Source of the DNA: a bacterium
Lineage (GTDB): Bacteria > Actinomycetota > Acidimicrobiia > Spongiisociales > ZC4RG35
Direction of reading: 5' to 3'
Length of the DNA stretch: 51,550 nt
NCBI GenBank assembly: GCA_024641285.1
Contig: JAHEDH010000007.1
Coordinates: 1 to 51,550, forward strand
Each line of letters opens with the position of its first letter. Positions within the stretch are counted from its first letter, which is position 1. The position numbers and the translations under genes are program-made. Below the pieces are notes generated by a model. The model did no database searches and was not told where the DNA came from. It saw only the letters and a program-made list of their open reading frames with translations. Of the stretch, positions 7,410 to 18,512 are shown in pieces.

Positions 7410-8684
7410 TCACTGCTCGTAATCCTCGAGCGCCTCGCCGATGACATCGATCGCCCAGTCGACCTCTTCGAGGGTGGTGATCGTGGGCGGGATGAAGCGG
7501 ATGATGTTGCCCATCGGGCCGCACTCGATGATCACGAGCTCCCGCTCCATGCAGTACTTCTGGATGTGGGCGAAGGCATCCTTGGCCGGGTCGCGGGTCT
7601 CCCGATCGGCGACCAGTTCGACGCCGATCATCAGGCCGAGGCCGCGAACGTCGCCGATCGTCGGGTGGTCGATGGCGAGCTTGCGGAACCGTTCGGTTGC
7701 CCGGGCCCCGACGTCTCGCGCATTCGGCAGTAGGGGGCCCATCGTGTCGATGACCGCCACGGCGGCGGCACATGACACCGGGTTGCCACCGAAGGTCGTG
7801 CCATGTGAGCCGACCGGCCAGTCGTCCATCACCTCGGCTGCCGCGCCGTAGGCGGAGAGCGGGAAGCCGTTGGCGATGCCCTTTCCCAGGGCGATGATGT
7901 CGGGGTTCACGCCGTAGTGATCGGCGGCGAACCACTCAGCGGTGCGTCCGAAGCCGGTCTGCACCTCGTCGAACACCAGCATGATCCCGTGCTCGTCACA
8001 GATCGATCGGAGCGACTCGAGGAAGCGCGGGGGTGCGGGGTAGTAGCCGCCTTCGCCCTGCTGTGGCTCGATGAGCATCGCGCCGATGTTCTTCGGGGTC
8101 ACCTCGTGACGGAACAGCATCTCGAGCTCGAACAGGGCGTAGTCGGTGGCCTCCTCGGCGTCCATGCCCCATCGGTACGGGTGTGGAAACGGCACGGTGA
8201 ACGTCGAGCCGAGGATGGGGTGATAGCCGTCCCGATACTTGGCATTGGAGGTCGTCCACGAGACCGAGCCCATCGTCCGGCCGTGGAAGGCGCCGCGGAA
8301 GGCGATCACGCCTTGGCGCCCGGTCGTCTTTCGGGCGAGCTTCACGGCGGCCTCGACGGCTTCGGCGCCCGAGTTGGCGAATCCGAACTTGTCGATCCCC
8401 TCTGGTGCGATCGCGCTCAGCTTCTCGCCGACCTCCACCACCGAGTCGTAACGGAACACGCATCCCGAGTGGACGAAGCGGTCGATCTGTTCGTGTGCGG
8501 CAGCGACGACGGCAGGGTGGTTGTGGCCGAGGTTGGTGACCGCTGTGCCGCATGCGAAATCGGCCCATTTGTTTCCTTCGGCATCGTGAATCCAGATGCC
8601 CTCTGCGCGTTCGATCACGAGGTCGGTGTCGAACGCGATGACCGGCGCGATCACATCGAGGTGACGTGCGACGAGATCTGACAT
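7410..8684 (-). CDS. gabT: Class III aminotransferase, 4-aminobutyrate aminotransferase-like
   Basis: Transfers an omega-amino group (GABA or a related amine) to 2-oxoglutarate, with PLP. Seen: GFANSGAEAVEAAVKLAR (phosphate-binding), FRGAFHGRTMGS, LVFDEVQTGFGR with the cofactor Asp at 239, and the Schiff-base lysine K268 in IIALGKGIANGFPLSA. 424 aa is the normal length. ATG start with GAGGAG 7 bases upstream. It is the first gene of a minus-strand run gabT-lipoprotein-decarboxylase. The pair of decarboxylase and omega-aminotransferase would convert an amino acid to an amine and then an aldehyde; substrate specificity (GABA, taurine, diamine, aromatic amine) cannot be read from sequence alone. 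Confidence 0.82.
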   Translation of the reverse strand: MSDLVARHLDVIAPVIAFDTDLVIERAEGIWIHDAEGNKWADFACGTAVTNLGHNHPAVVAAAHEQIDRFVHSGCVFRYDSVVEVGEKLSAIAPEGIDKFGFANSGAEAVEAAVKLARKTTGRQGVIAFRGAFHGRTMGSVSWTTSNAKYRDGYHPILGSTFTVPFPHPYRWGMDAEEATDYALFELEMLFRHEVTPKNIGAMLIEPQQGEGGYYPAPPRFLESLRSICDEHGIMLVFDEVQTGFGRTAEWFAADHYGVNPDIIALGKGIANGFPLSAYGAAAEVMDDWPVGSHGTTFGGNPVSCAAAVAVIDTMGPLLPNARDVGARATERFRKLAIDHPTIGDVRGLGLMIGVELVADRETRDPAKDAFAHIQKYCMERELVIIECGPMGNIIRFIPPTITTLEEVDWAIDVIGEALEDYEQ

Positions 8685-8805
8685 GTTTGCTCCTCTACAA
8701 CGGTGGACGGCCTTCGAACGCGGTGGGGCCTACGGAGCTGCGAACAGGTGCTTTCTCGATGTCGTCGGGGTCCGGCGCATGCCAGGAGTATGCCATATGG
8801 CCGGC

Positions 8806-9201
8806 TCACGGCTCCGAATCGTCGGCAGGTCGGCGAGCGGCGATGAGGCGTCGAAGCTCGGCGATTCGGGCCTCCAGCTCATCCCGTCCCTGTGCGGCGT
8901 CGATCCGCTTGTTCATGTAGATGACGTCGACGCCCGCCGTGATGTCGCCGCCGAAATCGCCACCGCCGGCGTGGCGAATGTGGTCGAGGCGGTCCCGGTC
9001 GAGCATCTCCAGGCGCCGCTTCGCCTCGGCCAACTCTGATTCCAGCGAGATGTCCGGAACGCCCTCGGCTGCGAGCGCGCGGGCCTCGACCTGCAGGGCT
9101 CGTTTCCGCTCGAGCAGCAACTGACGTTCCGAGGGAGCCCCGGCGAGATCGAGCAGTGAGTTGATGTGTTGCAGTTCGTCCCAGATTCGATGGGCATCCA
9201 C
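8806..9201 (-). CDS. Small coiled-coil protein of unknown function, 131 aa
   Basis: Unrecognised. Almost entirely charged helix: residues 1-70 (LLLERKRALQVEARALAAE, then AEAKRRLEMLDRDRLDHI) and the C-terminal RDELEARIAELRRLIAARR are classic coiled-coil heptads, joined by a Gly/Asp loop HAGGGDFGGDITAGVD. Cytoplasmic. GTG start at 9201; TACCAT sits 7 bases before the GTG, so it may also have its own leaderless promoter inside the purM end. 17 bases behind purM, so likely in the purF-purM operon. Its conserved place would be the best clue to function. Confidence 0.65.
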   Translation of the reverse strand: MDAHRIWDELQHINSLLDLAGAPSERQLLLERKRALQVEARALAAEGVPDISLESELAEAKRRLEMLDRDRLDHIRHAGGGDFGGDITAGVDVIYMNKRIDAAQGRDELEARIAELRRLIAARRPADDSEP

Positions 9202-9208
9202 TCCGTGG

Positions 9209-9214
9209 ATGGTA
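9209..9214 (-). promoter_or_regulatory. Leaderless -10 box before the coiled-coil gene
   Basis: TACCAT (minus strand), 7 bases, then GTG. Same geometry as other starts in the window. Confidence 0.35.
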
Positions 9215-9218
9215 TCGG

Positions 9219-10220
9219 TCAGGTGATCACGACAGCTTCGGGACCCTCCACGATCTCGCCGATGACGACGGGATCGTGACCGGAAACATGAGAGGCAACG
9301 TCGGAGACTCGCTCAGGCCTGACGATGAGGCAGAAGCCGATACCCATGTTGAACGCCTCGAACATGGCGCCGTCGTCGATGTCACCGATCTTCTGGAGGT
9401 GGTCGAAGATCGGTGGGCGCGACCAGGCCGACGTGTCGACTCTGGCCGACAGCCCCTCGGGCAGGGGGCGGCCGAGGTTTCCGGGCAGGCCGCCACCGGT
9501 GATGTGTGCCGCCCCGGTCACGCCGCCTGTCGCCATCGAGGCCAGCACATCTGCGCTGTAGAGGACCGACGGCTCCAGAACGGTCTCGCCGATCGTCGAG
9601 CCGTCGAAGCGGATCGCCCAGTCCGAGCCCGCCAGCAGTCTCCGAACCAGCGAGAAGCCGTTCGACCGCAGGTTCCGTGATGCCAGACCGATGACCAGAT
9701 CACCAACGTCGACAGCCTCGCCGACGATCTCTTCTCCTGCCTCCACGACGCCGAGCGCGGCACCGGCGAGATCGATGGCGTCGCGGTCCATCACGCCGGG
9801 ATGCTCCGCCGTTTCGCCCCCGACCAGCGCAGCGCCCACCTCGGCGCAGGCCGAGGCGATCGACGCAACCACGCTGGTGTCGCGATCGGGGTCGAGCCGG
9901 CCGACAGCCATGTAGTCGACGAACCCGATCGGTCTGGCGCCCACGGCCGTCAGATCGTCCACGCACATGGCGACGAGGTCGTAGCCGACCCCGTCCCACT
10001 TCCGGAGCTGTCTGGCGATCTCGAGCTTGGTTCCGACGCCGTCCGTCGACATCATGAGAACCGGCCGACGCATGCCCGCTGGGAGCTCGATACCGGCGGC
10101 GAAACCACCGAAACCACCGACGATGTTGGAGCCCCAGGTGGACGTCACCAGCGACCGGATCGCTTCGACGTGTCGTTCCGCTCCGGCCAGATCGACTCCG
10201 GCAGAGCCGTAGTCGGTCAT
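9219..10220 (-). CDS. purM: Phosphoribosylformylglycinamidine cyclo-ligase (AIR synthetase)
   Basis: Fifth step of de novo purine synthesis: ATP-dependent ring closure of FGAM to AIR. PurM/PurL-fold landmarks: STDGVGTKLEIARQL, MCVDDLTAVGARPIGFVDYMAVG, ALVGGETAEHPGVM, RNLRSNGFSLVRRLL and NMGIGFCLIV near the end. 333 aa, normal. The track ORF extends upstream, but homology begins at MTDYGSAGVDLAGAERHV, so ATG at 10220. Immediately behind purF (2 bases between stop and start), clearly one operon. Confidence 0.95.
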   Translation of the reverse strand: MTDYGSAGVDLAGAERHVEAIRSLVTSTWGSNIVGGFGGFAAGIELPAGMRRPVLMMSTDGVGTKLEIARQLRKWDGVGYDLVAMCVDDLTAVGARPIGFVDYMAVGRLDPDRDTSVVASIASACAEVGAALVGGETAEHPGVMDRDAIDLAGAALGVVEAGEEIVGEAVDVGDLVIGLASRNLRSNGFSLVRRLLAGSDWAIRFDGSTIGETVLEPSVLYSADVLASMATGGVTGAAHITGGGLPGNLGRPLPEGLSARVDTSAWSRPPIFDHLQKIGDIDDGAMFEAFNMGIGFCLIVRPERVSDVASHVSGHDPVVIGEIVEGPEAVVIT

Positions 10221-10222
10221 GT

Positions 10223-11674
10223 TCAGGGTGCCGCGGCGGGCTCGAGCACGAACTTGCCGGCGCCGTCCTCGATGGCCGTCGGGTACGTGCCGGTGAGACA
10301 CGCCGTGCAGAACGACTCCGACGGGGCACCGGTGGAGCCGAGCAGACCTTCGATCGAGAGGTATCCGAGAGAGTCGACACCCAGGAACTCGGTGATCTCG
10401 GCGACGCTCATCTTGGCCGCCAGCAACTTGGACTGATCGGAGGTGTCCATGCCGTAGAAGCACGGCCACCGATACGGCGGCGACGATACCCGCAGATGGA
10501 TCTCGGCGGCGCCGACGTCCCTCACCATGGCGATCAGCTGTCTGGTGGTGGAGCCGCGAACGATGGAATCGTCGACCAGGACCACACGTTTTCCGTCGAA
10601 GGTGGCAGGGATCGGATTGAGCTTGAGCCTGATGCCCTGGTCACGAAGCATCTGGGTCGGTTCGATGAAGGTGCGACCGATGTAGCGGTTCTTGACGAGG
10701 CCGTCGGCGTAGGGGATGCCGGACGCCTCCGAGAAACCCTGGGCGGCAGGAATTCCCGATTCGGGAACCGGGACGACCACATCCGCTTCGGCTGGGTACT
10801 CGGCGGCCAGGGTACGACCCATCCGCTGTCTGGCCCCGAACACGTTCGCGCCGTAGAGGTTCGAATCGGGTCGAGCGAAGTACACGAACTCGAAGACGCA
10901 CAGGCTGGGATCGGTGGTGGCGAACGGGCGGTGGCTCCTGACCCCGGTGGCGTCGACGACGACCATCTCGCCGGGCTCGACATCCCTGACGAAGGTGGCC
11001 CCGACGAGGTCGAGTGCTGCGGTCTCGGACGCGAAGACCCAGGCGTTGGCCCCGATCCGGCCGAGACAGAGCGGTCGGAAGCCATGCGGATCTCGTATCC
11101 CGACCAGCCGGCCCTGATCCATCACCACGAGTGAGAACGCTCCCTCGAATCGGGGAAGGACCTCCATGAGCGCCATCTCGAGCCCGCGAGCGTCGGATCG
11201 CTCGTCGTTCACCTTCTTGGAGATGATGTCGAGCATCAGTTCGGAGTCGCTCGACACGCCGGTGATGCCCTGCTCGCCGGCGAGCGTCGCGGTGTTCGTG
11301 AGGTTGCCGTTGTGGCCGAGAGCGATCGATGTGCTCCCGATCTGGCGGTGGACCGGCTGGGCGTTCTCCCAGCAGGAAGACCCGGTCGTGCTGTATCGGG
11401 TGTGACCGATGCCGATATGGCCTTCGAGTGCGGCGAGGTCGTTCTCGTCGAAGACCTGCGGGACCAGCCCGAGGTCCTTCACGACCGTCACGGTTTCGCC
11501 GTCCGACGTTGCGATGCCGGCCGCCTCCTGGCCTCGGTGCTGGAGGGCGAACAAGCCGAAGTAGATGGTGGCCGACACCTGCTGACCGGGGGCGTAGACA
11601 CCGAAGACCCCGCACGCTTCGCGCGGGCCGTTGAGATCGGGAGGCGGAGTGGCGGATGTGTCGGTCACGACCAT
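10223..11674 (-). CDS. purF: Amidophosphoribosyltransferase
   Basis: First committed step of purine synthesis: PRPP + glutamine to phosphoribosylamine. N-terminal Ntn-type glutaminase with nucleophile Cys in REACGVFGVY, preceded by a 20-residue propeptide to be cleaved; C-terminal PRTase with the PRPP loop VVLVDDSIVRGSTTRQ. All four iron-sulfur cysteines of the Bacillus-type enzyme are present (LCVFEFVYFARPDS, RWPCFYGMDT, FCTACLTGTYP), so a [4Fe-4S] cluster is expected. Start ATG at 11674; TATCCT lies 4 bases ahead, so transcript start may be at or inside the codon and the GTG two codons later is an alternative. Followed directly by purM. Confidence 0.95.
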   Translation of the reverse strand: MVVTDTSATPPPDLNGPREACGVFGVYAPGQQVSATIYFGLFALQHRGQEAAGIATSDGETVTVVKDLGLVPQVFDENDLAALEGHIGIGHTRYSTTGSSCWENAQPVHRQIGSTSIALGHNGNLTNTATLAGEQGITGVSSDSELMLDIISKKVNDERSDARGLEMALMEVLPRFEGAFSLVVMDQGRLVGIRDPHGFRPLCLGRIGANAWVFASETAALDLVGATFVRDVEPGEMVVVDATGVRSHRPFATTDPSLCVFEFVYFARPDSNLYGANVFGARQRMGRTLAAEYPAEADVVVPVPESGIPAAQGFSEASGIPYADGLVKNRYIGRTFIEPTQMLRDQGIRLKLNPIPATFDGKRVVLVDDSIVRGSTTRQLIAMVRDVGAAEIHLRVSSPPYRWPCFYGMDTSDQSKLLAAKMSVAEITEFLGVDSLGYLSIEGLLGSTGAPSESFCTACLTGTYPTAIEDGAGKFVLEPAAAP

Positions 11675-11859
11675 GACGAGGATAGGCGGTTGCGGTCGGT
11701 TGCCCGTATCACCGGTGTGGGCGGGCGGGGGACGGGTGGACGGTGCTCCGAGGCCGTGACAACCCCGCCGGTCGTGCCGATCCTCGGGAACCAAGCCGGG
11801 ACACGGCAGACGTCAGCAGGCGACGTCGACGATCTGGATGAACGACCCCGGGTCCCGTG

Positions 11860-12945
11860 TCAGCTGAACGGGCGCCAGAGTCGGTACGGGTTGAGATACC
11901 CGGGATCGTCTGGCTCGAGCAGGTATCCCTCGATCTCCCTGTCCTTGTACAGCGTGACATCTTCGATGGGAGGAGTGGTCCCGGGTGGGAACACCTCGAG
12001 GATCTGATCGATGAGCAGCGTCTGATACCGCAGCGCGGCGGCGACCGCGCGCTTGGCCTTGTCCGGTGAGGCGATCGTGGCCCGGCCGACGATGCCGACC
12101 GGCGTCGCCACCATCTCCAGCGGAGTGTTGTTTCGAACACTCCACCAGAGATTCGGCCGGCTGCGCTGATTCGCCGACTTGTTGAAGTGCTCGTCCGGCA
12201 GGTAGCTGTGACCGACGGTGTCCACCGCCCGACTGAGGTCGACCGTCTCGGGAGCCAGCAGCATCGCGAGCGAGGTCTCCGCCTCGTCTGCATGAACGAA
12301 GTCGTCTTCGAATGGTCCACCACGGTCCTTCGTTCGGAAGAACTCGTTCATGGCGGCGCACCAGTCGAAGGCCACCGCAAAGAAGGGCAGCTCGGGATAT
12401 CGCAACGCGAACATGTCGATGGCACCGGCGATCACCCAGTGTTGGGCGTGGTTGTTGACGAAGATCATCTTGCGGTAGCCCTGCGACCACAGTCCGAACA
12501 TCACGTCGACCAGCAGCTTCTGGAGCACGCTCTGGCTGATCGGGATGGTGCCGATCAGGCCGACGTGGTGCTTCGGGTGGTTGCCGTAGATCCAGGGCGT
12601 CTGCGCCAGGGTGACTTCACGCCCCTGCTTGGCGGTGGCGCGTCTGACACCCTCGACCAGCCGGGTCACCTGGAGCGTGTCCTGGGCGCTCACCGAATGG
12701 GGCCCGTGGAGCTCGGTGGATCCGAGCGGAATCATCACGATGTCGTTGAGCCGGCGCTTCTCTGCCAGCTCCTTGGGGTGTGTGTTTTGCAGATACGTGC
12801 CGGGGATCTCCATCTCGCCGGGGGAGGGGATCTCATACTCCTCGGTCAGGATCCGGTCGACCTCGGCGTCGGTCGCATCCCAGAGCTCCTGCTTCATCCG
12901 CCCGACTGCATTGTCTTCGAACTCGGGTGCGTGGATCAGATTCAT
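11860..12945 (-). CDS. iolN: Creatininase-family ring-opening hydrolase, IolN-like (3-dehydro-scyllo-inosose hydrolase)
   Basis: Creatininase-fold metal amidohydrolase-like enzyme; best reading is IolN, which opens the diketo-inositol ring to 5-keto-L-gluconate. Metal ligands are visible: E78, H80 and D89 in MIPLGSTELHGPHSVSAQD, H166 in FVNNHAQHW, and the acidic HADEAETS (218-225). N-terminal MKQELWDATDAEVDRI and MEIPGTYLQNT lie outside the creatininase core and fit the IolN-type subgroup as I know it. 361 aa. ATG at 12945 overlaps the kinase stop in ATGA, so translation is coupled. Last gene of the dehydrogenase-aldolase-kinase-hydrolase cluster, which supports a sugar/cyclitol substrate rather than creatinine. 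A different cyclic substrate remains possible. Confidence 0.62.
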   Translation of the reverse strand: MNLIHAPEFEDNAVGRMKQELWDATDAEVDRILTEEYEIPSPGEMEIPGTYLQNTHPKELAEKRRLNDIVMIPLGSTELHGPHSVSAQDTLQVTRLVEGVRRATAKQGREVTLAQTPWIYGNHPKHHVGLIGTIPISQSVLQKLLVDVMFGLWSQGYRKMIFVNNHAQHWVIAGAIDMFALRYPELPFFAVAFDWCAAMNEFFRTKDRGGPFEDDFVHADEAETSLAMLLAPETVDLSRAVDTVGHSYLPDEHFNKSANQRSRPNLWWSVRNNTPLEMVATPVGIVGRATIASPDKAKRAVAAALRYQTLLIDQILEVFPPGTTPPIEDVTLYKDREIEGYLLEPDDPGYLNPYRLWRPFS

Positions 12946-13928
12946 GGCCCTTCCCTTTCGATTGTCCGTTCTCTCACCGAATCGCCTTGCTCGGCCAGGA
13001 GTGAGCCGACTTTGGAGGCGCTGACGCCGCCGACACACCCGACCGCGGTTGCAGCGGAGGCTCCCACCGCCTGAGCGCGTACGAGGAGTTCGGTCAGTTC
13101 GTCGACACCGAGGCCGTCGAGGTGGGGTGCCGGCTGCTCTCGCAGATAGTCGACGACGCCTGCACAGAACGCGTCGCCGCAGCCGGTTGCGTCGACCGTG
13201 TCGACCTCGAACGGAGCCTGACTGACCCGGCGGCCTTCGGCGAAGGCGTGTGCCCCCTGCTCACCGCTGGTCACCAACACGAGCCGCACCCCGGCATCGA
13301 GGAAGACCTTGACGGCCTCGTCGAGTGTCGTCGCGCCCGTGTTGATCAGTGCTTCCCGTTCGTTGCAGTGGACGATGTCGGCCAGGCGGAGCGCAGGGGA
13401 CACGTAGTCGACCGGCCGGTCGGGGTGTGGCTTCATCAGATCCAGCATCACGACGACGTCCGTCAACGGTGCGAGGATCTCCGCCAGGTGCAGGTCGATG
13501 CCCGAGTACCCCGGCCGCACGGTCAGCAGATCCGGCCGCCACTCGTCGATGGCCGCCATGACATGGTCGGACCGCAGCCACCAGTTGGCCCCAGGGTCCA
13601 GATGGAACCGGCGGTCCTCGCCCGTCACCTCCAGCACCATGTTTCGCCCGGTGTCCTCCTCCTCCACGTCCTGGAGATACGTCCGGAAGCCGTACGGGGC
13701 GAGCGCGTCGCGGACGAACGACCCGAAGGGTCCCCGACCGACCGCAGCAGCCACCGCCACCGAGTCAGGTGAGCGGCCGAGGTCCACGAGGTCGATGGCG
13801 ACGTCGATGGGATGGCCGCCGAGGCGGGTGTCGACTGTGGTGTAGACGACCTCGCCGGGGCTGGCGACCGCATCAAGTCCAACGGCCAGGATGTCGACCA
13901 TGATGGTGCCGACGGCGAGCGTTCGCAT
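12942..13928 (-). CDS. PfkB-family sugar kinase
   Basis: Ribokinase-fold ATP-dependent kinase of a sugar or sugar acid. N-terminal MRTLAVGTIMVDILAVG, the substrate-lid glycines LGGHPIDVAIDLVDLG (37-51; the usual GG..N has Asp here) and the C-terminal anion hole/catalytic base DTVDATGCGDAFCAGV with D252 as base. 328 aa, normal. Three bases behind the aldolase gene and overlapping iolN by four bases, so one transcript. From context the substrate may be 5-keto-L-gluconate or a similar ketohexonate made by the hydrolase, giving a ketose-1-phosphate-type product for the aldolase. It is not obviously IolC. Confidence 0.8.
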   Translation of the reverse strand: MRTLAVGTIMVDILAVGLDAVASPGEVVYTTVDTRLGGHPIDVAIDLVDLGRSPDSVAVAAAVGRGPFGSFVRDALAPYGFRTYLQDVEEEDTGRNMVLEVTGEDRRFHLDPGANWWLRSDHVMAAIDEWRPDLLTVRPGYSGIDLHLAEILAPLTDVVVMLDLMKPHPDRPVDYVSPALRLADIVHCNEREALINTGATTLDEAVKVFLDAGVRLVLVTSGEQGAHAFAEGRRVSQAPFEVDTVDATGCGDAFCAGVVDYLREQPAPHLDGLGVDELTELLVRAQAVGASAATAVGCVGGVSASKVGSLLAEQGDSVRERTIEREGP

Positions 13929-13931
13929 CGG

Positions 13932-14510
13932 CTAGCCGCCTTCCGCCAACGCCGCCTGGTACCGGTCCACCAACGTTGCCGTTTCTGCGACGGTCTCGCC
14001 CCATGCCACGATGCCATGGTCGATCAGCACGAAATAGCGAGTGTCGGGGTGTTGGTCGAGAAACCGCTCGATCTCCTCCTTCGACTCGCGCGTCCCGGCG
14101 GGGTGGTAGGTGCTCGTTGCGGGTACGCCGAGCCTCTGCAGGTCGTCGAGGCGCCCCACGTGGAGATGGAACACGGATGTGGCGGTCGGTCGCCTCTCGT
14201 AGAGCACCGCGTGGACCGAGGCGTCCTTCGATGGCTCGTGGAGTCCTCGTGAAGTCACAACCGGGCCGTCGGCATCGTGCTCGATGCCTGTCACCAGCAC
14301 CCAATCCTCGTTTGCGATCGTCGCGAGCGGCACGCCGGTCCGGGTGATCAGGAATCCCTCCGCTGCCCGGCAGCTCAGATTGCCCGACTCGCCCGGCGAC
14401 AGTCCCGCTGCCGCCAGTTCGGCGCCCCAGGTCGCCAGGCCTTCCAGTCGTGGGTCATCGAGAAGGTCTGCAGGGACGGGTCGACTGTCTCGTCGGTGCC
14501 CGACCTTCAT
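13932..14510 (-). CDS. Class II aldolase/adducin-family protein
   Basis: Zn-dependent aldolase of the FucA/AraD/MtnB fold, 192 aa. Zinc ligands: H115 and H117 in SVFHLHVGRL and H165 in LIDHGIVAWG. The position of FucA Glu73 (four residues before a His) is Asp here (PSKDASVH, D96), an unusual change at the proton-transfer residue. N-terminal LSPGESGNLSCR is the phosphate/carboxylate-binding Gly-Asn loop of the fold. The track ORF runs far upstream inside the dehydrogenase; start ATG at 14510 overlaps the dehydrogenase stop (ATGA). Probably splits the phosphorylated keto acid to DHAP plus an aldehyde acid. A dehydratase (MtnB-like) or epimerase role is the alternative. Confidence 0.75.
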   Translation of the reverse strand: MKVGHRRDSRPVPADLLDDPRLEGLATWGAELAAAGLSPGESGNLSCRAAEGFLITRTGVPLATIANEDWVLVTGIEHDADGPVVTSRGLHEPSKDASVHAVLYERRPTATSVFHLHVGRLDDLQRLGVPATSTYHPAGTRESKEEIERFLDQHPDTRYFVLIDHGIVAWGETVAETATLVDRYQAALAEGG

Positions 14511-15604
14511 CTCGGGTTGGGCTGGATCAGGACTTTCAGGGCGCCACCGAGGCGTTTCGTGAAGGTCTCGTACGCCCCGGCGAACTCCTGGAGCGGGAAC
14601 GTGTGGGTGGTGACGATGTCCACGTCGAGCTTGCCCTCTGCGATGAGCGGGATGACCTCGGCGCAGGTGCCCGGGTTGGCTCGTACACCGAACAGGTCCA
14701 TCTCCTCGAACACGATTCTCTGCAACGGCAGGACACACGGCTCCAGCGGGACGCCGATCAGCGCGATGCGGCCGCCCTTGCGTGTCATCGAGACGGCATC
14801 GGCCGGTGTGTTGCCGCGAGCTGCCGTGTCGACGGTGAAATGGGCGCCCTGGCCTTCCGTGAGCGCGCGCACGGCCGCGGGCCCGTCGGTGTCGGAGTTG
14901 TCGACGATCTCGAAGCCGAGTGCGGCTGCCGTCTCGAGGCGTTCGCCTCTCCCCACCATGATCACGCGGGCCGCTCCCATCAGTTGGGCCAGCAGACCCG
15001 CCAGCAGGCCCTGCGCACCCGGCCCGATGATGGCGGCCGTCTCCCCGGCTCTGGCACCGGCCCGCTTGACGGCATGAAGCGCGATCGAACTGGCATCCAC
15101 CAGCGCTCCCTGTTCGAGGGTCATCGAATCCGGAATCTTGAAGACGCTCTTGATCGAACTGGCGTGGTACTGCCGCATCGCCCCGGTGGAGTAGTGGCCG
15201 TAGTGGCGATGGCCGACCTCCTCGTTGCCGTAGTTGTCGCAGAGGTTGTAGCGGCCGATGGCGCATTGCCTGCAGAAACCGCAGCCTGCATGAGCGGTTC
15301 CGGCCACTCGGTCGCCCACGCGAAAACCGAGCTCCTCAGACCCCTCTCCTGTGGCAACGACCGTGCCCGACCATTCGTGACCGGGGGTGTACGGGTATCC
15401 CCTCGGCCAGCCCTTCTTCAGGAAGTTCCCCGAAATGATCTCTCTGTCGGTGCCGCAGATGGCGACCGAGTGGACCTCGCAGAGGACCTCATGCCGGCCC
15501 ACCGGTGGCACGGGCACCGTCTCGACCTCGAACCGGTCCGGCCCGAGAAGAACCAGCGCATCCATCGTCGGGGGAACAGCCCCTTCGTTCGGGGCCTGCG
15601 GCAT
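14507..15604 (-). CDS. Zinc-dependent polyol/sugar dehydrogenase (MDR)
   Basis: NAD(P)-dependent medium-chain dehydrogenase that oxidises a secondary alcohol of a polyol. Catalytic zinc: C50 (AICGTDRE) and H76-E77 (PGHEWSG); structural zinc complete with C108, C111, C114, C122 (CGFCRQCAIGRYNLC); Rossmann loop IIGPGAQGLLAGLL. 365 aa. ATG at 15604 with AAGGGAG 6 bases upstream; the track ORF extends too far. First gene of the four-gene cluster. By context it could do the IolM reaction (oxidation of scyllo-inosose to the diketo compound), but the sequence itself only supports the general sorbitol/threonine dehydrogenase group. Confidence 0.83.
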   Translation of the reverse strand: MPQAPNEGAVPPTMDALVLLGPDRFEVETVPVPPVGRHEVLCEVHSVAICGTDREIISGNFLKKGWPRGYPYTPGHEWSGTVVATGEGSEELGFRVGDRVAGTAHAGCGFCRQCAIGRYNLCDNYGNEEVGHRHYGHYSTGAMRQYHASSIKSVFKIPDSMTLEQGALVDASSIALHAVKRAGARAGETAAIIGPGAQGLLAGLLAQLMGAARVIMVGRGERLETAAALGFEIVDNSDTDGPAAVRALTEGQGAHFTVDTAARGNTPADAVSMTRKGGRIALIGVPLEPCVLPLQRIVFEEMDLFGVRANPGTCAEVIPLIAEGKLDVDIVTTHTFPLQEFAGAYETFTKRLGGALKVLIQPNPR

Positions 15605-15675
15605 CGGAACTCCCTTCACCTGAGCGTCCAGCGATCGTAACGCCCCTCTCGCCCGCCGTCCCGGGCCATTCGGCC

Positions 15676-17139
15676 TCAGTTGTCGGGCGCGTACGCCGGC
15701 CGTGATGGTGATATGCGTCGCAAGGCGAGCAGTCCCAGCGCAGCGATGACAGCACCGATCCACGTCGCCAGCGCGAAGCCGTCGATCACCGCAGAGCTCA
15801 CCGGTCCGCCCACGGGAGCCGAGTCGCCGGAAAGCACGTCCCGGACCAATTCGGGGTCACCCACGGTTTTCGCAACCGTGGCGAACAGCGCCGCGCCCCC
15901 GATCGCCGACCCGAAAGCGAACCCCTGATTCCGGAAGAACTGGTGGGCGGCGGTCGAGCGCCCCATCTCTTGGGGCTCGCTCACATCCCGGAGGAGGGTG
16001 AGCGCGGCATTGGTCGCAAGCCCGATCCCCACACCCACACCGAAGAGCGCCGCGAAGAGGACCGGGAGAGCCAGAGCGAGCATCGCTGCCAGTGCGGTCG
16101 CAACCAGCGAGGGGATCGTGGTGCCGAAGCCGAAGCGGATCACCTTCAGTTCGGATCGTGAATCGAGGAGTCGAGAGGACAGGTTGGCACCCGCCGTCCA
16201 GCCGACCGTGAAGAACAGCACAGACCAGGCGGTCGTGGCCTCGGAGGCGAGCCTCCCGGCACTGACATAGAGCGGCACGAAGGCATTCGGTGCGAAGGCT
16301 CCGGTGATCAACAGCGAGATGGCGAAGGCGAGCGGCGCAAAGGGCGCTCCGGTCAGGTATCGGCGTTCGACCAGGGGCGACCGGTGGGTGCCCGAGCGCC
16401 GATAGAACGCCAGGCCGGACAGGACGGCAACCCCGAACCACGCGAACGATGCCCAAGCCAGGTCGTTGACCGCAAACAGCACGGCGGCGGTGAACGCCAG
16501 CGCCAGGATGGCTCCGATGTAGTCCATCGGTTGACGATCGGACAGCGTCTGGGCGGGCGGCATCACCCGCCAACCGGCCAGAAGTGACAGCAGACCGAGC
16601 GGAAGATTGATGAGGAAGATCCATCTCCAGTCGAGCTGGGTCAGCATCACGGCGGCGATCGCCGGGCTCGCCACACCCATCACGCCCCACACCGTGGAGT
16701 TCGCAGCGAACGCCCGGCCCGTGAGATGCGGCGGGTAGATCAACGTCACCGCTGCGAGCCCGACCGCGATGACCATCCCCGCACCTGCTCCCTGGATCGC
16801 CCGAAGTGCGATCATCGCCTCCATCGACGGCGCGAACGCAGCCATCACGCCGGCACCGGCAAACGCGACGACCGCCACCCGGAACATGGTCCGGACGCCG
16901 ATCGTGTCGATGAGTCGACCGGACACGATCGTCGCGACGCCCGAAGTCAGGAGGAATGCGGTGATCACCCAAGGCAGCAGTGAGACCGAACCGAGGTCGG
17001 CTGCGACCTCGGGGAGCGCTGCTGCGACGGCGAGGCCCTCGAACGCGGCCAGCGCGACCGTGACGAAGATCGCGGTCGACGCCGGCAGCAGCTCCCTGGA
17101 CAAGACACTCCGTGGCGTTGCGATTGATCGACCGTTCAC
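15676..17139 (-). CDS. MFS transporter, DHA2/EmrB-QacA-like
   Basis: Proton-coupled membrane transporter with about 14 hydrophobic segments, 487 aa. Motif A variant GRLIDTIGVRTMF between TM2 and TM3; motif-C-like GVMGVASPAIAAVML in TM5; WRWIFLINLPLGLLSLL is typical of the DHA2 drug-efflux branch. Starts at a GTG 6 bases behind TACGCT, so leaderless. Upstream of the dehydrogenase by 71 bases and in the same direction, so possibly cotranscribed and then a candidate metabolite transporter; family resemblance alone says drug/metabolite export. Confidence 0.8.
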   Translation of the reverse strand: MNGRSIATPRSVLSRELLPASTAIFVTVALAAFEGLAVAAALPEVAADLGSVSLLPWVITAFLLTSGVATIVSGRLIDTIGVRTMFRVAVVAFAGAGVMAAFAPSMEAMIALRAIQGAGAGMVIAVGLAAVTLIYPPHLTGRAFAANSTVWGVMGVASPAIAAVMLTQLDWRWIFLINLPLGLLSLLAGWRVMPPAQTLSDRQPMDYIGAILALAFTAAVLFAVNDLAWASFAWFGVAVLSGLAFYRRSGTHRSPLVERRYLTGAPFAPLAFAISLLITGAFAPNAFVPLYVSAGRLASEATTAWSVLFFTVGWTAGANLSSRLLDSRSELKVIRFGFGTTIPSLVATALAAMLALALPVLFAALFGVGVGIGLATNAALTLLRDVSEPQEMGRSTAAHQFFRNQGFAFGSAIGGAALFATVAKTVGDPELVRDVLSGDSAPVGGPVSSAVIDGFALATWIGAVIAALGLLALRRISPSRPAYAPDN

Positions 17140-17145
17140 GGTCTC

Positions 17146-17151
17146 AGCGTA
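17146..17151 (-). promoter_or_regulatory. Leaderless promoter of the MFS gene
   Basis: TACGCT, 6 bases, GTG. A weak -35 (GTGGCA) stands 17 bases upstream. Confidence 0.5.
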
Positions 17152-17285
17152 TGACCCGTCCGAAGAGGTGCCACATCGCCGGCACCCGGCAGGCGGACAG
17201 CGCCTACCCTTCGGCGTCGACGCGCCGGATGCGCTCGAGACACGTTGCAGCTGACACGCCCAGGAGCGTGTGGGAGGACTCTGAA

Positions 17286-18512
17286 GTGGAAGTCGTACTC
17301 TTGATCGTGGGACTGGTCATCGGAGTCCTCATCGGGTGGTTCGTTTGGAACCGCGTCGGCGCCAAGAAGCTCAATGACGACTTCGCTCGCCGGCTGCGCC
17401 ACACCGATGACCAGATCGTGACGCTTCGACGTCGGGCGGAAGAGGCCGAGGGCCAGCTGGAGCCGCTCCACGTCCAGGTCCGCGAGGTGAAGGACGAGCG
17501 TAGAGAGACCCAGAAGCAGCTCGAGAAGCTCAAAGGCCGCTTCGACAAGCTCAAGGGCGAGAAGGACGACCTCGAGTCGTCCATGGCGGAGATCCGCAAG
17601 CGCGCCGGCGAGGCCGACCGGTTCGCTTCGGAGGTCGACGACGAGCGACGAAAGGCCGTTGCGGCAAAGAGCGAGGCCGATGAGTTGCGTCTCCAGCTGG
17701 GCGGTGTCGACGACCTCCGCAACCGGCTGATTTCGGCCCAGGATCGGCTGGTCGAGGCGGAGCGCGCCAAGGAGGACGCCCGCCTCCGCGCAGCCGAGGC
17801 CGAGAAGGTGACGAAGCGGGCGACGGTCGAGCTCGAAGCCTCGATGGACACGATCGCCACGCTCCGCCAGGCGGCAGAAGGTGCGCTCGACCTGCAGCAC
17901 GAGCTCGATGCATCACAGTCCAGGGTTTCCGAGCTCGAGTCAACTGTTTCCCGGCAGTCGGGCGAGATCGCCGGATTGCGCGATCAGCTGGCCGCCTCGT
18001 CGGTCGTTGCCGACGAGCGCGGCAGCGCAGCCATCGAGCCGGAGGCCGTCGAGGTCGCCGCCATCGACCCGGCATCGGAAGCGGTGACACACCCGGACGA
18101 GGACGAGTCCCCTGTGCCCTCGCCGCAGGATGATCCCGTGGAGCACATTGCGATCGACACCGAGTCCGAAGCATCATCTGAGAAGGCAAATGACGAGTCG
18201 GTCGCGGAGACCTCCGAGCCGCTCACCGACCGAGATGCCGCCGTCGAGCGCGTGAAGGCGATCGCTTCGCGCACGTCGGGTGGACGAGAGGTCACCAACG
18301 ACGACCTGAAGAAGATCCATGGCGTCGGGCCCAAGATCGAGAAGCTGCTCAAGGGCATGGGGATCACCTCGTTCCTCCAGGTCGCGAACTTCACGCCGGA
18401 GGACATCGAGGCCGTGACCCTGGCCCTCGACGCCTTCCCGGGCCGTATCGAGCGCGACGACTGGGTCGGCTCGGCCGACCAGCTCTACCGGGACAAATAC
18501 GAAACGGATTGA
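17286..18512 (+). CDS. Membrane-anchored coiled-coil protein with C-terminal helix-hairpin-helix domain
   Basis: 408 aa. Order: one N-terminal membrane helix (VVLLIVGLVIGVLIGWFVW), a coiled coil of about 230 residues rich in Glu/Lys/Arg (RRRAEEAEGQLEPLHVQ to EAEKVTKRATVELEAS), an acidic disordered spacer, and a C-terminal HhH-type domain DDLKKIHGVGPKIEKLLKG with TSFLQVANFTPEDIEAV. The last part resembles the helix-hairpin-helix domain annotated as predicted 5' DNA nuclease-like; by itself it suggests DNA or protein binding, not catalysis. Start is the GTG at 17286, 8 bases behind GGAGG; the longer track ORF is not supported. A membrane tether for nucleoid or ribosome components is possible; function unknown. 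Confidence 0.75.
   Translation: MEVVLLIVGLVIGVLIGWFVWNRVGAKKLNDDFARRLRHTDDQIVTLRRRAEEAEGQLEPLHVQVREVKDERRETQKQLEKLKGRFDKLKGEKDDLESSMAEIRKRAGEADRFASEVDDERRKAVAAKSEADELRLQLGGVDDLRNRLISAQDRLVEAERAKEDARLRAAEAEKVTKRATVELEASMDTIATLRQAAEGALDLQHELDASQSRVSELESTVSRQSGEIAGLRDQLAASSVVADERGSAAIEPEAVEVAAIDPASEAVTHPDEDESPVPSPQDDPVEHIAIDTESEASSEKANDESVAETSEPLTDRDAAVERVKAIASRTSGGREVTNDDLKKIHGVGPKIEKLLKGMGITSFLQVANFTPEDIEAVTLALDAFPGRIERDDWVGSADQLYRDKYETD

Follow-up and report, generated by a model that had tools for sequence, protein, structure and literature searches.

The window analyzed here, a stretch of 51,550 nucleotides that represents contig C169 of the 3.4 Mb genome (89.5% complete) of the host, an uncultured acidimicrobial bacterium, carries a cassette of four intact genes on the minus strand between positions 15604 and 11860. 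The first gene (positions 14507..15604) encodes a Zn-dependent medium-chain dehydrogenase of 365 aa with the Pfam domains ADH_N and ADH_zinc_N, which we propose as a ring-ketone dehydrogenase in the role of IolM. It is followed by the gene for a short class II aldolase of the FucA/RhaD/AraD/MtnB superfamily (13932..14510; 192 aa; Pfam Aldolase_II), a candidate 5-keto-L-gluconate-6-phosphate aldolase, and by the gene for a PfkB-family sugar kinase (12942..13928; 328 aa; Pfam PfkB), a candidate 5-keto-L-gluconate 6-kinase. The last gene (11860..12945) encodes an IolN-type C-C hydrolase of 361 aa with a creatininase fold, which is of the 3-dehydro-scyllo-inosose hydrolase type (NCBIfam NF041098). 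A previous interpretation of this region, referred to here as the sequence-only reading, described four overlapping genes. All four are present and in place, and the ATGA overlaps at the dehydrogenase/aldolase joint (14510-14507) and the kinase/hydrolase joint (12945-12942) are real, but the aldolase and kinase genes are separated by a gap of 3 bases. The region yielded no match to a promoter or terminator consensus. The flanking genes are unremarkable, with a PurF-like gene at one end of the cassette and an MFS transporter gene at the opposite end, both named from their sequences.

The same two flanking genes are syntenic in a genome of the same genus (G116, locus L083), where blastn placed the sequences matching positions 8005-11712 and 15724-18502 only 32 bases apart. 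The window thus holds 4.0 kb where G116 has 32 bases, the block that is present in the host and absent from G116 being located at 11713..15723. Given this empty site, either the host acquired the cassette or G116 lost it, in both cases as one unit. The four genes thus behave as one inserted block, in support of the sequence-only reading, which took the ATGA overlaps to imply a single pathway. The patchy distribution of the cassette favors gain over loss. Its GC content is the same as that of the flanks (0.66).

The hydrolase scored 267 bits against the NCBIfam IolN equivalog model, which has a cut-off of 245, versus 60 bits against the creatininase model, in agreement with its earlier designation as IolN-like. 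When aligned with 30 related proteins, it displayed the IolN-type signatures NHPKHH, NNHAQ and HADEAETS, which are missing from most creatininase-like proteins of the same order; a 33%-identical pair of proteins (from G055 and G058) has some of them. In the phylogenetic tree the window hydrolase belongs to a group of six (support 99/98) that is sister to eight IolN proteins (100/97 for the combined group), while all eleven creatininase-like rows are placed apart. Grouping with true creatininases, which had been named beforehand as the result that would speak against the pathway, was therefore not observed, and the reading of the protein as a creatininase was ranked lower. The nearest named relatives come from Acidimicrobiaceae metagenome assemblies, of which the contig scan gave only two. 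The hydrolase subtype of the window also occurs in a more distant actinobacterium (G491, 48% identity to the window hydrolase), where genes for IolM (525 bits, cut-off 450), this IolN subtype (313 bits, cut-off 245), IolG (433 bits, cut-off 355) and IolO (314 bits, cut-off 300) stand in a row. The presence of IolM, IolG and IolO over their cut-offs next to it ties the subtype to inositol.

The dehydrogenase is less easily named. Its best NCBIfam family is IolM, but at 166 bits it is far under the cut-off of 450, so that the model does not call it IolM, and it is nearly as close to threonine dehydrogenase. This lineage-specific character, well below IolM, would suit a pathway for another cyclitol, such as a methylated, deoxy- or amino-inositol or a different isomer, that yields a keto-acid one position off 5-keto-L-gluconate and still needs a kinase and an aldolase. 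The sister loci described below point the same way in that, besides additional oxidoreductases and a GH88-like protein, they contain ABC transporters of the branched-chain type and no obvious inositol transporter. Nevertheless, the arrangement of the hydrolase subtype in G491 argues against another cyclitol, and we regard such a substrate as fairly unlikely.

The kinase belongs to the PfkB family (Pfam PfkB, E 8.5e-26) with a conserved catalytic motif of the GxGD type, DATGCGDAF, and none of the equivalog models matched it. Its best PDB sequence match is YdjH of E. coli (blastp, 27% identity, E 1e-16), a protein annotated as octuluronate kinase whose gene neighbors include those for an octuluronate-1-phosphate aldolase and two zinc dehydrogenases. 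The E. coli cluster ydjEFGHIJKL (YdjH kinase, YdjI aldolase, YdjJ/YdjL Zn dehydrogenases) thus resembles the cassette in combining a Zn dehydrogenase, a PfkB kinase and a DHAP-type aldolase that acts on a keto-uronate 1-phosphate, and we counted the annotation of ydjHIJL as a precedent for reading the three window genes in this way. It differs from the cassette in having no IolN hydrolase, and YdjI is of a different aldolase family. At a threshold of E 1e-25, orthologs of the window kinase were detected in 2 of 395 genomes of the class, with G020 as the only one apart from the host. A PfkB-family protein is also encoded in the inositol operon of Thermotoga maritima, namely TM0415, which is PPi-dependent and weakly phosphorylates myo-inositol (PMC5931981). 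By analogy, the window kinase might act before ring opening, on the cyclitol or the inosose, leaving the aldolase to cleave the resulting phospho-keto-acid. However, the TM0415 structure (1vk4) was not reached by the window kinase at E 0.001, and the loci of the IolO type within this order yielded no ortholog of the kinase, as would be expected if it served a step after ring opening. Phosphorylation of the ring is thus an improbable role for the window kinase.

In the alignment, the aldolase retains the three zinc-binding His residues that mark the class II superfamily (H115, H117 and H165), and its Asn44, Thr58, Gly59 and Ser94 match the phosphate-site residues of FucA. The acidic catalytic residue, which is Glu in FucA and RhaD and Asp in AraD, is Asp96. 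As the sequence-only reading had pointed out, this Asp occupies the position of a Glu in FucA (Glu73), and it aligns with Asp76 of AraD. The adjacent Lys95 replaces Ser72 of FucA, as does Lys78 in YgbL. No equivalog model matched the aldolase, and the OtnC and MtnB models scored slightly above FucA. Together, these features raise the question of whether the protein could be an AraD-like epimerase that acts on a phosphorylated acid in place of IolO, or a decarboxylase resembling OtnC or YgbL. The catalytic residues of AraD are Asp120 and Tyr229 (PMC5434028), neither of which has a counterpart in the window protein, and its loop and C-terminal arm are shorter than those of FucA, which speaks against epimerization. 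Moreover, the product of IolN is a 5-keto and not a 3-keto acid, so that simple decarboxylation is not expected. Both the epimerase and the decarboxylase readings were ranked lower, and it is quite unlikely that the enzyme is something other than an aldolase. The AlphaFold2 models of the aldolase and the kinase were poor (pLDDT 43.5 and 40.6, respectively).

The sequence-only reading had suggested a search for the same gene order beside iolG or inositol transporter genes in related genomes. The full cassette was indeed found in a genome of another family (G020, CAMYMH010000056), with identities of 81, 72, 68 and 83% for the dehydrogenase, aldolase, kinase and hydrolase, the same gene order and the same ATGA overlap between the dehydrogenase and aldolase genes, but neither iolG nor an inositol transporter gene adjoins the cassette within the window. 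The host and G020 are the only genomes in which the dehydrogenase-aldolase-kinase-hydrolase combination was found, and plasmid searches returned only distant creatininases, aldolases and kinases and no cassette. Five other genomes of the same order (G008, G010, G072, G069 and G054) have a close relative of the dehydrogenase (73-79% identity) followed by a main-type IolN (497-507 bits in the two that were scanned). Next in line is an IolO-like protein, which, where scanned, reached 259-270 bits against a cut-off of 300. G012 has IolO second and a hydrolase of the window type (75% identity) third after the dehydrogenase, and in G010 IolO is immediately followed by a fragmentary window-type hydrolase gene that contains stops (L032 13245-13481; C16:43356-43481). 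Judging from these two arrangements, the two hydrolase types seem to be interchangeable across loci. Among 11 genomes checked, G020 was the only one with an ortholog of the window aldolase. It is absent where IolO adjoins and missing from nine IolN-bearing relatives; in G089 and G012 only 29-32% identical matches were obtained. In the genomes tested, aldolase orthologs and IolO modules are mutually exclusive. The aldolase and the kinase are present at the loci of the host and G020 with no PF01261 protein adjoining (G020 has three such proteins, none beside the cassette), so that IolO is replaced at both loci. The comparison with the sister loci therefore bears out the claim that a kinase and an aldolase take the place of the epimerase. 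The tree of dehydrogenases was not resolved and did not give the direction of this swap. In principle, the aldolase and kinase genes, neither of which matches an equivalog model, could derive from an unrelated sugar pathway and lie between the dehydrogenase and hydrolase genes by chance. Since the four-gene order and the overlap are conserved in two families, the genes were inserted as one block, and IolO modules are excluded where the aldolase occurs, we consider a chance association highly improbable.

A search of the host genome for members of PF01261 (xylose isomerase-like TIM barrel), to which both IolO and IolE belong, found none. This is unusual, as the control was positive in 13 of 14 genomes, and the same-genus G116 has one such protein. 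Accordingly, neither an IolO of the Thermotoga type nor an IolE of the Bacillus type was found in the host, although the absence of IolO could reflect a gap because the assembly is 89.5% complete. The host has Gfo/Idh/MocA genes in 11 places. Ten of the proteins were scanned against the IolG model (cut-off 355), with a best score of 148 bits, and an IolG-like gene on contig C85 scored 124 bits. The closest relative of this gene (67% identity) is located about 2 kb upstream of the G020 cassette. Genes of the glycerate-kinase and HIBADH families are also present in the host.

Based on the present data, the cassette probably represents horizontally acquired cyclitol catabolism, most likely of inositol, with a kinase-aldolase end that leads to DHAP and tartronate semialdehyde, a reading that we favor by a modest degree. 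We infer each substrate and product, as well as the order of kinase before aldolase. Oxidation of an inosose by the Zn dehydrogenase would produce a 1,3-diketo ring, which the IolN-type hydrolase would open between the carbonyls to give a 5-ketohexonate, the equivalent of 5-keto-L-gluconate in the Thermotoga route. Next, the PfkB kinase would place a phosphate on C6, the CH2OH group adjoining the keto group, and the short class II aldolase would cleave between C3 and C4 to yield DHAP and tartronate semialdehyde, the latter presumably being reduced and then phosphorylated through glycerate.

The T. maritima inositol pathway, which Rodionova is said to have reported in 2013, reportedly runs from IolG through IolM and IolN to IolO. 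With this pathway the cassette shares an IolN-type hydrolase over its cut-off, a Zn dehydrogenase in the place of IolM and an expected 5-ketohexonate, but has an aldolase and a kinase instead of IolO and no adjoining IolG. In Thermotoga, IolO converts 5-keto-L-gluconate, the product of IolN, to tagaturonate; the cassette would bypass tagaturonate and the 2-keto-3-deoxygluconate route. The same C4 epimerization of 5-keto-L-gluconate has been described elsewhere (PMC12632266), in the L-glucose/L-galactose pathway of Luteolibacter LG18, which likewise passes through 5-keto-L-gluconate but continues with a C4 epimerase, tagaturonate and KDG. The proposed ending is closer to that of the Bacillus iol pathway (IolC kinase and IolJ aldolase), in which a 5-keto acid is also phosphorylated at C6 and cleaved to DHAP and a C3 semialdehyde. 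It differs in that IolE was not found in the 89.5% complete host genome, that IolJ is of another aldolase superfamily with opposite sugar stereochemistry, and that the cassette substrate would retain the 2-hydroxyl, giving tartronate rather than malonate semialdehyde. IolJ, a fructose-bisphosphate-type aldolase, acts on the configuration opposite to the D-sorbose type. Drawn in ketose form, 5-keto-L-gluconate is configured like D-sorbose, and its 6-phosphate is D-sorburonate 1-phosphate, a ketose 1-phosphate and as such the kind of substrate on which FucA and RhaD act, so that a FucA/RhaD-family enzyme is the expected type. With glyceraldehyde, FucA and RhaD reportedly produce both D-sorbose 1-phosphate and D-psicose 1-phosphate (PMC5434028). 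We tentatively suggest, at slightly less than even chances, that the cassette encodes a third inositol route that joins a Thermotoga-type opening to a Bacillus-type ending in a horizontally transferred set of four genes, with a 5-keto-L-gluconate 6-kinase and a FucA/RhaD-family 6-phosphate aldolase that are both undescribed. Searches of the available papers returned no description of this variant. If the proposal is correct, inositol catabolism gains a branch that feeds lower glycolysis directly, the handling of the ring-opened acid by bacteria with IolN but without IolO is explained, and the kinase and the aldolase, for which present models offer no name, are assigned functions.

Several further genes were noted in and around these loci. 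On host contig C85 (L066 9560-13421), genes for a Gfo/Idh dehydrogenase, a cupin, a creatininase-like protein, a hydroxyacid dehydrogenase and a carboxymuconolactone-like protein are present; orthologs of the Gfo/Idh dehydrogenase (67%) and the creatininase-like protein (61%) are located just upstream of the G020 cassette. In G089 (L025 1028-3332) a window-type hydrolase gene (86%) is divergent from a transaldolase-like gene, with no dehydrogenase, kinase or aldolase orthologs adjoining, and this transaldolase recurs (82%) near the IolN-IolO module of G008 (L031 2000-3208). An aldehyde ferredoxin oxidoreductase-like protein is conserved upstream of dehydrogenase-IolN/IolO modules (L029 12972-14795, L031 5306-7702, L032 8074-9900). 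Lastly, an FMN oxidoreductase, a GH88-like protein and a short-chain dehydrogenase are conserved near IolO-type modules (L029 3762-7442, L032 15442-19122, L033 3228-6851, L034 5048-8671), and this set may be a clue to the actual substrate further upstream.
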